Of a DNA stretch of 32,025 nt, positions 8,319 through 11,252 are shown piece by piece. This DNA comes from Bacteroidia bacterium. GTDB lineage: Bacteria; Bacteroidota; Bacteroidia; J057. Location: assembly GCA_030430575.1 (NCBI GenBank), contig JAUIKF010000076.1, forward strand, positions 1 to 32,025. The letters are read 5' to 3'. Every line of letters starts with the position of its first letter. Position 1 is the stretch's first letter. The position numbers and the translations under genes were made by a program. A model generated the notes under the pieces. That model did not search any database and was not told where the DNA came from. It saw nothing but the letters and a program-made list of their open reading frames with translations.

Positions 8319-9281
8319 ATGGTGAATAAAGAATTGAAAACCAGTGTCTTAATTACAGGTGGTGCTGGCTATTTGGGCAGCCAAGTGGTTCAGCGGCTTG
8401 CCAATCACCATCATATTCAGTTGGTGTCTATGGATATCAGAGAGGTCCCCAAAGAGGGCCAGTTGCCCGGCGTGACCTATCTGCAAGGCGATGTGGGAAA
8501 AGCTGATTTTGTCAAAATTCTTCAAACCTATCAGATTCAAACGGTGATTCACCTGGCGGCCATCGTCATGCCAGCGAAACCTATCCCTCGGGAAGTCATG
8601 TACCAGGTTGATGTGATAGGGACAAAGCGTTTGCTGGAAGCATGTGTAGAGACAGGGGTAAAGCGGTTTATTACGACTTCTAGTGGGGCCGCTTATGGCT
8701 ATTATCCCGACAATCCTTCCTGGTTGACAGAGGACGACCCTATTCGGGGGAATAAGGAATTTGCCTATGCCTATCATAAGCGATTAGGCGAAGAGATGTT
8801 GGCAGATTATCGGGAAAAATACCCATCCTTACAGCAGACGATCTTGCGAGTAGGGACGATTTTGGGAAAAAGTACCAAAAATCAAATCACAGCGCTTCTG
8901 GATAAAAATCCTATTTTAGGAATAAGAGGAACGGATAGCCCATTTGTCATGATTTGGGATCAGGACCTTGTCAGGTTGCTAGAATATACCGTTTTTACCC
9001 CTCAAACGGGTATTTACAATGTGGCAGGGGATGGTGCGCTTTCCGTCCAGGAAATTGCTTCCATACAAGGGAAGCGATGTGTAAAACTTCCAGCTTCAGT
9101 AGTAAAAATCGGCATTTCTATCCTGCGATTCTTCAGGCTAGTACCTTATGGCCCCGAGCAGGTCCGCTTTATCCAATATCGTCCCGTCCTATCTAACCAG
9201 CGACTAAAGACGGAATTGGAATTCATTCCTGAAAAAACGACCAGGGAAGTATTTGAATTTTATCTAAAGAACAGAGACTGA
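8319..9281 (+). CDS. NAD-dependent epimerase/dehydratase (extended SDR family)
   Basis: The 320-residue protein carries the NAD-binding motif GGAGYLGS (14-21), the HLAAIVMP loop, the TTSSGAAYG strand and the catalytic pair Y150/K154 (YAYHK), all standard for extended SDR sugar-nucleotide epimerases, dehydratases and related 3-beta-hydroxysteroid-type enzymes. No specific substrate motif was recognised. It begins 7 nt downstream of the monooxygenase gene and is almost certainly in the same transcript. Its last 18 nt overlap the end of the convergent DCC-family gene, so no dedicated terminator fits between them. Confidence 0.85.
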   Translation: MVNKELKTSVLITGGAGYLGSQVVQRLANHHHIQLVSMDIREVPKEGQLPGVTYLQGDVGKADFVKILQTYQIQTVIHLAAIVMPAKPIPREVMYQVDVIGTKRLLEACVETGVKRFITTSSGAAYGYYPDNPSWLTEDDPIRGNKEFAYAYHKRLGEEMLADYREKYPSLQQTILRVGTILGKSTKNQITALLDKNPILGIRGTDSPFVMIWDQDLVRLLEYTVFTPQTGIYNVAGDGALSVQEIASIQGKRCVKLPASVVKIGISILRFFRLVPYGPEQVRFIQYRPVLSNQRLKTELEFIPEKTTREVFEFYLKNRD

Positions 9282-9692
9282 TTCCTCTAGGAATCGGCCG
9301 CGCTCTTCTGGTGAGGGAATGCGGCAAGCCGATTTCTTTCCGAACCAGCGATAGCGGTTTCGGGCAATGAAGTCATAGACACCATCCCTAAGGAATTTGG
9401 GAATAAAAATAAAGTAATAGAGGAGGTAAAAAGGGAACCTTAAGCGCCTTGCAATCTGCAATGCTGCAGTTGATTTGTCAAAAAGTTTTCCTTCTGATAG
9501 GTAGTAAATCGTCCCTACTTCATGCGTCTCAACGCCATATTTTTCAAGGATTTTTTGCCCAGCTTCAGATTGATTGGCTGTAAAGAAGAATTGCTGCTTC
9601 ACATCATTTTTCAAGATGACTTGAACAGAGGTATCGCAAAAATTGCATACTCCATCAAAAATAATCAAATGGTCTGGAAGCTTTAATTCCAT
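9264..9692 (-). CDS. DCC-family thiol-disulfide oxidoreductase-like protein (DUF393)
   Basis: The start is taken as the ATG at 9690-9692 (MELKLPDHLIIFDGVCNFCD). A TTG five codons upstream would overlap the lspA stop. The 142-residue protein has the family hallmark DGVCNFCD near its N-terminus, where D and the two cysteines give DCC proteins their name, followed by FTANQSEAGQKIL. The fold is thioredoxin/glutaredoxin-like; functions are mostly unproven, though a thiol redox role is assumed. It sits 11 nt after lspA in a minus-strand operon. The 3' end overlaps the convergent SDR gene by 18 nt. Confidence 0.8.
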   Translation of the reverse strand: MELKLPDHLIIFDGVCNFCDTSVQVILKNDVKQQFFFTANQSEAGQKILEKYGVETHEVGTIYYLSEGKLFDKSTAALQIARRLRFPFYLLYYFIFIPKFLRDGVYDFIARNRYRWFGKKSACRIPSPEERGRFLEESVSVL

Positions 9693-9703
9693 ACTACCTA
9701 AAC

Positions 9704-10399
9704 TCAAGATTCGGAAGATGGTTGAGTATTTTCTGTTTTTGAAGCTTCTTTATGGTCTACTGGTGTTTCTGGACTTGAAGGGGCATCTTCAGTCTTTTTA
9801 GCATCCTCTTTTTTCTCTTCTTCCAATTCGCCAAAAAACTTCTTTTGCCTAAACAGTAGAATAAAAAATGCAACGGAAATAGCTGCATCAGCAATATTGA
9901 AAATAGGCCTGAAAAAGATGAAACTTTCCCCACTCCAAAATGGAAACCATTCGGGAAAATGCCCATGAATCATAGGGAAATACAACATGTCGATGACCTG
10001 ACCGTGTAGGAAGGCAAATGGCGCAGCAAAGTGCATATTATTCTCCAGCCAGACCCCATAGAATACGCTGTCAACCATATTGCCAAATGCGCCTCCAAGA
10101 ATCAATCCCAACGTCCATAGAAGGCCCGTATGCGCCTTTTTCTTTGCCATTCGATAGATAACATAGATCAGAACCCCTACCGCAATAATGCGAATAATAC
10201 TGAGCGCCATTTTCCCATAGGCAAAGTCCATTTCTATTCCATAGGCGATGCCTGGATTAAGGACGTAATGGAGTTTCGCCCAATCGCCAGCGAGGGTGAT
10301 CTCGCTATAGAGTTCCATATTAAAATAGACCCATAATTTCAGGGCGTGATCCAAGACGATCACAATCAGGGCGAGAAGATAATATCTGTAATATTTCAT
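9704..10399 (-). CDS. lspA: Lipoprotein signal peptidase (signal peptidase II)
   Basis: This inner-membrane aspartyl protease removes signal peptides from diacylglyceryl prolipoproteins. Four membrane helices are evident, with the catalytic aspartates in GGAFGNMVDS (D110) and FNIADAAIS (D171) and the conserved NPGIAYG motif. The interval between the two aspartates (61 residues) is much longer than in E. coli LspA. After the fourth helix is a charged tail of roughly 50 residues rich in E, K, S and T that is not part of the enzyme core. Its ATG overlaps the TGA of the upstream HTH-KdsC gene by 3-4 nt, implying translational coupling. At least two predicted lipoproteins in this window (DUF4249 and beta-helix proteins) would be substrates. 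Confidence 0.93.
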   Translation of the reverse strand: MKYYRYYLLALIVIVLDHALKLWVYFNMELYSEITLAGDWAKLHYVLNPGIAYGIEMDFAYGKMALSIIRIIAVGVLIYVIYRMAKKKAHTGLLWTLGLILGGAFGNMVDSVFYGVWLENNMHFAAPFAFLHGQVIDMLYFPMIHGHFPEWFPFWSGESFIFFRPIFNIADAAISVAFFILLFRQKKFFGELEEEKKEDAKKTEDAPSSPETPVDHKEASKTENTQPSSES

Positions 10400-11112
10400 G
10401 TGGTGTTCCCTTCTAGGTCATATCCAAGTACATCCTGTAAAAACTCTCTCACACAGCCTTCCCCACCTCTTTTATCCAAAATGATATTCACTGCAGCGCG
10501 AACCGCAGGTTCGGCGTCGGCGGGACAAGCTGATAATCCCGCTCGCTTGATAGCTGGAATGTCATTCACATCGTCTCCGATGTAAGCAACCTGCTTCCAG
10601 CTTATACCTAACTGTCCAAGCCATTCTTCGATTACCTTTACTTTGGGGCGATTGCCCCCATATACAAAAGCAACGTTTAATGCTTCGGCTCGCGCTTTCA
10701 GAATACTGATGGCACTAGACCCACTGATAAAACCAAATTTGACGGGGTAAAATTTCTCAACCCTTCGGATGGCCATGCCATCCTTAACGTTGAAGCATTT
10801 GAACTGGTCCCCTGATCCCGTATAGTAGAGCCCTCCGTCCGTGAGGGTGCCATCTACATCTAGCAAGACAAGCTTGAGCTTTTGGCGGCGGAGGCGTTTC
10901 TGTTGGCCTTCCAGGTCTTTTTTGAGCAGCGCATCTATGGGGATGTTCAGTTTGTCAGACACCTGAATGAGGGTATTGAGGTCAGGTTCCCCTTTCCCTT
11001 GCTCAAATTGACGCAAGCTACTTTCCCATACACCCAAATGCCTCGCCATATCATCAAGGCTAATGCCTTTTTGTTGGCGAATAAATTGGAGATTGGAACT
11101 GAAGTACAACAA
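10396..11112 (-). CDS. XRE-type HTH domain fused to a KdsC-like HAD phosphatase
   Basis: Residues 6-62 form a complete XRE-family helix-turn-helix (NLQFIRQQKGISLDDMARHL ... LRQFEQGKGEPDLNTL). Residues 80-236 match KdsC, the Kdo-8-phosphate phosphatase: HAD motif I DVDGTLTDGG (85-94), FNVKDGMAIR, motif II around ISGSSA (129-134), motif IV GDDVNDIP (179-186) and the KdsC-like C-terminus ADAEPAVRAA...GGEGCVREFLQDVL. KdsC makes free Kdo for the lipopolysaccharide core. Residues 63-79 are a basic linker (KRLRRQKLK). The start is a TTG at 11110-11112: an in-frame TAA lies directly upstream and no ATG precedes the HTH. It overlaps lspA by 4 nt. The HTH suggests binding to DNA, perhaps its own operon; that is untested inference. 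Confidence 0.85.
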   Translation of the reverse strand: MLYFSSNLQFIRQQKGISLDDMARHLGVWESSLRQFEQGKGEPDLNTLIQVSDKLNIPIDALLKKDLEGQQKRLRRQKLKLVLLDVDGTLTDGGLYYTGSGDQFKCFNVKDGMAIRRVEKFYPVKFGFISGSSAISILKARAEALNVAFVYGGNRPKVKVIEEWLGQLGISWKQVAYIGDDVNDIPAIKRAGLSACPADAEPAVRAAVNIILDKRGGEGCVREFLQDVLGYDLEGNTT

Positions 11113-11180: not shown

Positions 11181-11207
11181 CAAAAAGCAGGCGCAAATGC
11201 ACCTGCT
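11181..11207 (-). terminator. Rho-independent terminator of the NtrC-type regulator gene
   Basis: On the minus strand AGCAGGTGCA and TGCGCCTGCT (11207-11186) pair over ten bases with one G-T wobble and a two-base loop, followed by TTTTTG and a second T run. It ends about 45 nt after the stop of the sigma-54 regulator and separates it from the HTH-KdsC operon. Confidence 0.7.
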
Positions 11208-11252
11208 CTTTATTCGATAATTGTATCCCTTATGAATAGGAATTCTGAATGG

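Follow-up and report, generated by a model that had tools for sequence, protein, structure and literature searches.

The KdsC (YrbI) phosphatases, described by the model TIGR01670, share with the protein considered here a HAD phosphatase domain, the catalytic residues, the fold, and the pathway context. What the latter adds is an N-terminal domain of ~66 residues, apparently derived from an XRE-type helix-turn-helix (HTH), together with a linker helix, and the solved KdsC structures that matched it comprise the enzyme part only. The nearest architectural precedent is BzdR, with the same order of N-terminal XRE domain, linker, and C-terminal metabolic-enzyme domain. Excerpts of one report describe BzdR as an XRE domain joined to a shikimate-kinase-like effector domain, the effector being without detectable kinase activity, and an artificial XRE-shikimate kinase chimera as a bifunctional regulator (PMC3602430). 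A further point of comparison is the Bacteroides KDN-9-P phosphatase (BT1677 type, which can be fused to NeuA), which provides the nearest solved structures by sequence and is among the nearest by fold. It differs in its fusion partner, a cytidylyltransferase rather than an XRE domain, and in two residues, Glu56 and Lys67, that are not kept in the fusion protein.

The fusion of an XRE-type domain to a KdsC phosphatase is encoded in the genome of Bacteroidia bacterium (assembly GCA_030430575.1). The window, meaning the whole stretch of DNA analysed, comprises positions 1-32,025 of contig JAUIKF010000076.1 (32,025 nucleotides), and holds the following features:

10396..11112, minus strand: HTH-KdsC fusion gene, 238 aa, TTG start (ORF, Pfam, NCBIfam)
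10921..11103, minus strand: XRE-type domain, helices 1-5, residues 4-64 (HTH_3 at 11-61; AlphaFold2 helices, high pLDDT)
11002..11025, minus strand: predicted recognition helix (helix 3), residues 30-37 (AlphaFold2 model; missing in 22 of 30 extended aligned rows)
10885..10914, minus strand: linker helix between the two domains, residues 67-76 (AlphaFold2 model)
10426..10878, minus strand: KdsC (HAD) phosphatase domain, residues 79-229 (TIGR01670 above cut-off; invariant catalytic residues; Foldseek)
9704..10399, minus strand: lspA, second gene of the unit (PF01252; NF011369 above cut-off)
9264..9707, minus strand: DCC1-like thiol-disulfide oxidoreductase gene, third gene of the unit (PF04134)
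11181..11212, minus strand: terminator-like hairpin, between the upstream response-regulator-like gene and the fusion gene (mean 0.1 in shuffles)

The fusion gene, its unit and its distribution

The fusion gene is a single 238-aa open reading frame on the minus strand, running from a TTG start at window position 11112 down to 10396, with a TAA just 5' of the TTG. Pfam places HTH_3 (PF01381) at residues 11-61, scoring 41.3 bits (gathering threshold 23), and HTH_19 reaches 36.9 bits (threshold 30.2); KdsC (TIGR01670, NCBIfam) is matched at residues 79-225 with 128.9 bits against a cut-off of 106.95 (129.8 bits in the genome search). The AlphaFold2 model of the protein (mean pLDDT 91.6, pTM 0.79) has helices at residues 4-15, 19-26, 30-37, 45-55, 59-64 and 67-76, and the HTH_3 score, together with the five-helix fold in the model, places the domain in the XRE type. 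An earlier note on this DNA, made from the letters alone, had proposed an XRE-type HTH and a KdsC in one continuous frame, overlapping lspA, and on both points it was right: the lspA start sits inside the fusion-gene stop (ATGA).

The DCC1-like gene in turn overlaps lspA by four bases. With a terminator-like hairpin lying 3' of the response-regulator-like gene, the three genes HTH-KdsC, lspA and DCC1-like probably form their own transcription unit, headed by the fusion gene, and we infer one promoter in the short gap upstream of it. In 6 of 11 family members (window position 11112, and loci L035, L036, L037, L039 and L041), the start codon of the fusion gene, as picked by the analyst from the alignment, is TTG or GTG rather than ATG, which perhaps keeps translation of the protein low.

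Full-length fusions are present in 11 of the 13 genomes of the family, the window's genome included. As the same full-length frame recurs in ten other family genomes, a sequencing frameshift or assembly artefact, which the note had named as the finding that would undo its proposal, can be set aside. One of the remaining family members (G002) was not found to hold the HTH fusion; there, the phosphatase is fused to the C-terminus of IspD (L015:808-2022, L106:4299-5501). No KdsC match was found in the other (G008, 93% complete). Beyond the family, 6 of the 9 genomes from other families of the order have a phosphatase match, the earliest of which starts at residue 68, so none of the six extends back into the HTH region. 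Among 40 matching plasmid records, none covers 80% of the fusion protein. The note had supposed the XRE-KdsC fusion to be undescribed, and a description was indeed not found among the matches listed from open-licence PMC papers. The fusion is thus real, common to a whole family, and undescribed as far as the literature was searched.

The neighbours are less constant. Among 10 family loci read (G010 left out, and genes beyond the window identified by eye), lspA comes directly after HTH-KdsC in two, the window and its genus mate, whereas the DCC1-like gene comes next, either at once or behind lspA, in six, and beyond it the neighbours are not conserved. A conserved coupling to lspA was accordingly rejected. 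The connection to lipoprotein processing that the note had drawn is thus a local arrangement, as lspA lies beside the fusion in one genus only among the loci read.

The only KdsC of the genome

In the window's genome (99% complete), the fusion is the only KdsC-family match; a second, ordinary KdsC was considered and rejected, none being found in the genome search. The remainder of a Kdo pathway that needs a KdsC is present: KdsA and KdsB both score above their cut-offs, WaaA is matched, and beside kdsA lies a KdsD-type protein (G000:C40:48863-50103) matching positions 1-152 of 268, which is the SIS part only and falls under the family cut-off. In one other family member (G009), the fusion gene is the second gene downstream of kdsA. 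The residues of HAD motifs I-IV (D85, D87, S130, K157, D180, D181 and D184) are invariant across 35 aligned rows, and the best Foldseek matches are KdsC/YrbI and KDN-9-P phosphatase structures, with all 50 of the matches listed covering the enzyme part and leaving the N-terminal domain uncovered. Taken together, elimination, residues and pathway context indicate that the fusion protein is very probably the cell's Kdo-8-P phosphatase.

Two genomes of the family stand apart in their KdsC complement. The genus mate, G001, carries an additional KdsC-type phosphatase (33% identity) on a contig that also encodes a cytidylyltransferase nearby (G001:C29:67157-69368), perhaps marking a nonulosonate locus. 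G008 has KdsB- and WaaA-type matches; KdsA, KdsD and KdsC were looked for there and not found.

The N-terminal domain and its relatives

Outside the family, most relatives with an N-terminal extension lack the helix that would read DNA: in a 35-row alignment, a nine-column gap falls at helix 3 in 22 of the 30 extended proteins. An AlphaFold2 model of one such relative (mean pLDDT 85.3, pTM 0.77) has helices at residues 2-14, 18-24, 35-45, 49-54 and 60-68, and agrees with the window protein in helix order and spacing. Both models contain helices 1, 2, 4 and 5 and the linker helix, helix 3 being found in the window protein only. When the profiles of the HTH and helix-3-less groups were compared, the E-value was 1.3e-4 (a single comparison) and the probability 54%, with helix 3 as the only large gap; with cruder borders, which cut four rows badly, these values were 5.6e-4 and 30%. 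The helix-3-less domains have a negative net charge (mean -7.9, range -11 to -2, 24 rows).

The phosphatase domains were also placed in a tree of 76 rows, rooted at the midpoint only. In it, a clade of 66 rows (support 96/94) unites 10 HTH-bearing, 40 extended and 15 bare proteins with one fused to IspD, and splits into the family rows with the IspD fusion (83/81) and 55 others (96/84), including four rows from Gammaproteobacteria MAGs. A motif filter removed 11 rows (six NeuA-fused, two KdsA-fused and three short); L103-L105, being copies, were also excluded, and G010 is therefore absent. The N-termini were parsed for 67 of the best 80 loci from a genome scan, and intermediate forms are seen in L107, L108, L109 and L125. 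The profile comparison, the models and the tree, each of moderate weight, support a shared origin of the HTH and helix-3-less forms. Stand-alone Bacteroidota KdsC-type genes beside Maf- and UbiA-like genes (L058-L060; neighbours named by eye) belong to the same superfamily, and perhaps catalyse the same reaction, but fall outside the 66-row clade and have no N-terminal domain.

Within the family the picture is mixed. The recognition helix is kept in six rows, where its mean identity (0.53) is close to that of the enzyme (0.55), and is different or shortened in G003, G009, G011 and G012, so that over all 10 rows the means are 0.33 against 0.54. Degeneracy of the HTH in homologues, a second outcome by which the note would have judged itself mistaken, is seen outside the family and not in these six rows, and the sub-group may still use helix 3, for DNA or for something else.

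In phage repressors, a Gln opening helix 2 makes a phosphate contact. None of the 10 aligned family members has Gln at the start of helix 2, against 11 of 12 XRE domains taken as controls from these genomes (17 control loci were given, of which 12 had an alignment spanning more than 50 residues). The alignment holds 10 of the 11 family proteins; the remaining one, G007, was read separately and is likewise without the Gln, and G012 is ambiguous at this position. The mean net charge of the N-terminal domain is -1.6 over 10 family rows and +0.9 over the 12 control XRE domains, a modest difference. A search of the 11 upstream regions found no shared word above the maximum of the shuffles and no common dyad, which is a weak test, as the genomes are distant, one region has 84 bases, the regions lie upstream of this gene only, and the shuffles were crude rearrangements of two-base blocks. 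The missing Gln, the charge, the weak operator search and the loss of helix 3 in relatives all argue against a conserved DNA-binding role. Of these, the strongest line is the last, in that same-clade relatives appear, from alignment and models, to keep the domain and lose the reading helix.

The reading we lean towards, at somewhat better than even confidence, is that of a sole Kdo-8-P phosphatase whose XRE-derived N-terminal domain serves as a protein-contact module and does not read an operator. On this account, a KdsC clade mainly of Bacteroidota would have acquired the XRE-derived domain early on; the KdsC part would catalyse the Kdo-8-P step, as its residues and pathway context suggest; and the N-terminal domain would make protein contacts, either in oligomer assembly or in docking a partner enzyme or protein. 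Judged by what is conserved and what is not, a contact role would be the most likely one for the domain. Several observations sit awkwardly with it: helix 3 is as conserved as the enzyme in six family rows, which a lost function would not predict; HTH models of Pfam are matched at E <1 by only 2 of the 24 helix-3-less members, both weakly; the charge difference in the family is modest; and 15 bare rows lie inside the clade.

The principal alternative is a trigger enzyme, in which the XRE domain binds an operator and Kdo-8-P in the phosphatase site alters that binding, so that the level of Kdo precursor controls either its own unit or further envelope genes. An HTH_3 match above the gathering score and the helix 3 conserved in six family rows speak for such a regulator, as does the architecture, which matches that of BzdR and resembles the chimera reported in the excerpts cited above as a bifunctional regulator. 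It is nonetheless unlikely, given the absent helix 2 Gln, an upstream search that returned neither word nor dyad in 11 regions (weakly informative, as noted), neighbours that are not conserved beyond the DCC1-like gene, and sister lineages that retain the domain without its recognition helix. The regulatory link that the note had proposed, from precursor level to operon expression, finds no support in the Gln, in the weak operator search, in the conservation of lspA or in the fate of helix 3 outside the family. Neither does the protein look like a BzdR-type sensor without catalysis: its catalytic residues are intact and it is the sole KdsC of the genome, unlike the effector domain of BzdR, described in those excerpts as without detectable kinase activity (PMC3602430). 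It differs from both BzdR and the chimera in that, among its relatives, it is the HTH and not the enzyme that appears to decay.

A second alternative, which we regard as rather improbable, is that the XRE domain arrived through a chance fusion, does no harm at the N-terminus, and is decaying as a passenger without a function of its own. The 15 bare rows inside the clade suggest that some members can do without the domain and that it may be such a passenger, and the IspD found in its place in G002 points the same way, as do the least conserved segments of the family rows, the linker region at 65-78 (0.21) and helix 2 (0.27). Against it, helices 1, 4 and 5 of the 24 helix-3-less proteins are conserved nearly like the enzyme (0.56, 0.57 and 0.56 against 0.60), which fits selection on the remaining fold, and thus a kept function of that fold rather than a mere passenger.

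A different sugar acid phosphate as the substrate, either KDN-9-P or a 3-deoxy-ulosonate that is not Kdo-8-P, would make the link to the Kdo of LPS wrong. This is very improbable. The KDN-9-phosphatase model NF058599 does give the fusion protein its best NCBIfam score, the top sequence match in the PDB is the Bacteroides KDN-9-P phosphatase, and elsewhere in the KdsC clade the gene adjoins a DAHP-synthase-like gene. Against this, that score is 135.1 bits where the cut-off is 180; of 10 family rows, none has Glu56 and a single one, not the window protein, has Lys67; and KdsA, KdsB, WaaA and a KdsD-type protein are all present in the genome, with no other KdsC. We take Glu56 and Lys67 to be markers of the Bacteroides enzyme; a mutant E56A/K67A is named in a PDB title, and both residues are present in the four NeuA-fused relatives read. 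Identity as a KDN-9-P phosphatase was therefore rejected on score and residues.

If the contact-module reading is right, the locus departs from the usual story, in which an enzyme joined to a DNA-binding domain becomes a regulator. Here the enzyme is intact and the DNA-reading helix vanishes, which is the opposite direction, and orthologues at different stages make the case testable. It also carries a warning for annotation, as such proteins could be labelled transcriptional regulators when each is probably the cell's only Kdo-8-P phosphatase.

Rpe-CBS and DAHP-synthase-like genes in the wider clade

A more important lead may lie in the neighbourhood of the clade outside the family. Elsewhere in the class, other families have KdsC next to a DAHP-synthase-like gene (motif KPRTS) and a gene with a ribulose-phosphate-3-epimerase domain and CBS domains (for example L046, L048-L050, L052, L055 and L057). 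Neighbours were searched in all of the best 80 loci (L103-L182), and 39 have the order Rpe-CBS, DAHP-synthase-like, KdsC on one strand. In the culturable Brumimicrobium oceani (L127), both partner genes come immediately ahead of KdsC. Four of these 39 (L119, L129, L132 and L135) are from Gammaproteobacteria MAGs with KdsCs that fall inside the Bacteroidota clade, the result of either transfer or binning error. In 11 of the best 80, the gene upstream of KdsC instead resembles true KdsA; with one exception, these 11 carry labels of other phyla, such as Ignavibacteria and Geobacter.

Across 149 genomes of the class, an Rpe-like gene (E 1e-30 or better) is found in 33, namely in 33 of the 37 genomes without KdsA and in none of the 112 with it, four genomes being without both. 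KdsA was counted as present for four matches just under the cut-off and for two that were split or fragmentary, and the KdsA, KdsB and Rpe-CBS searches are assumed to have used the same draw of 149 genomes, as far as the lists show. Fisher's test gives 5e-29 for this exclusion, a figure that is not the probability of the claim, as the counts are not phylogenetically independent; six families hold both genome types. The Rpe-like match spans the full model in 29 of the 33 and the epimerase part only in the other four, all of family f9, and Pfam found no CBS in the one f9 protein scanned. KdsB is above its cut-off in 31 of the 33 genomes, the other two being 69% complete, and the Rpe-like gene adjoins a DAHP-synthase-like gene in 27 of the 28 cases checked among the 33.

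The KdsD model matched only CBS parts and weak SIS matches of less than 25 bits in nine KdsA-less genomes, and no class II DAHP synthase was found in 30 genomes, 29 of them Rpe-CBS genomes. Two genomes (G027 and G049) have one PF00793 protein only, which would then have to serve the aromatic pathway too. In six Rpe-CBS rows, His31, Asp33, His58 and Asp160 are invariant; presumably they serve such epimerases in metal binding and acid-base catalysis.

Rpe-CBS and the DAHP-synthase-like enzyme may thus replace KdsD and KdsA, or may make another 3-deoxy-ulosonate activated by KdsB. Excerpts of one paper describe the classical KdsD-KdsA steps in one marine Bacteroidetes (PMC9478572), and among the matches listed from open-licence PMC papers no title describes a route to Kdo through Rpe-CBS and a DAHP-synthase-like enzyme. 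Some observations fit poorly. The DAHP-synthase-like enzymes carry the ordinary DAHP synthase motif, and score above the DAHP synthase models and not the KdsA model; G043 has KdsA and keeps a DAHP-synthase-like gene beside KdsC, without Rpe-CBS; and G008 combines its KdsB- and WaaA-type genes with neither KdsA, KdsD nor KdsC among the genes found. It is possible, and proposed only tentatively, that both ideas hold at once, the former repressor domain being the docking part of a Kdo-making assembly, and the clade outside the family supplying the third enzyme of a so far unrecognised pathway that makes Kdo, or some other 3-deoxy-ulosonate for KdsB to activate, with Rpe-CBS and the DAHP-synthase-like enzyme replacing KdsD and KdsA.

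A further arrangement was seen in two Bacteroidia MAGs, one labelled Paludibacter, in which KdsA and a KdsC-type phosphatase are encoded in one chain (L164:5041-6480 and L165:5260-6639); their KdsA parts share 57-58% identity with the G009 KdsA.
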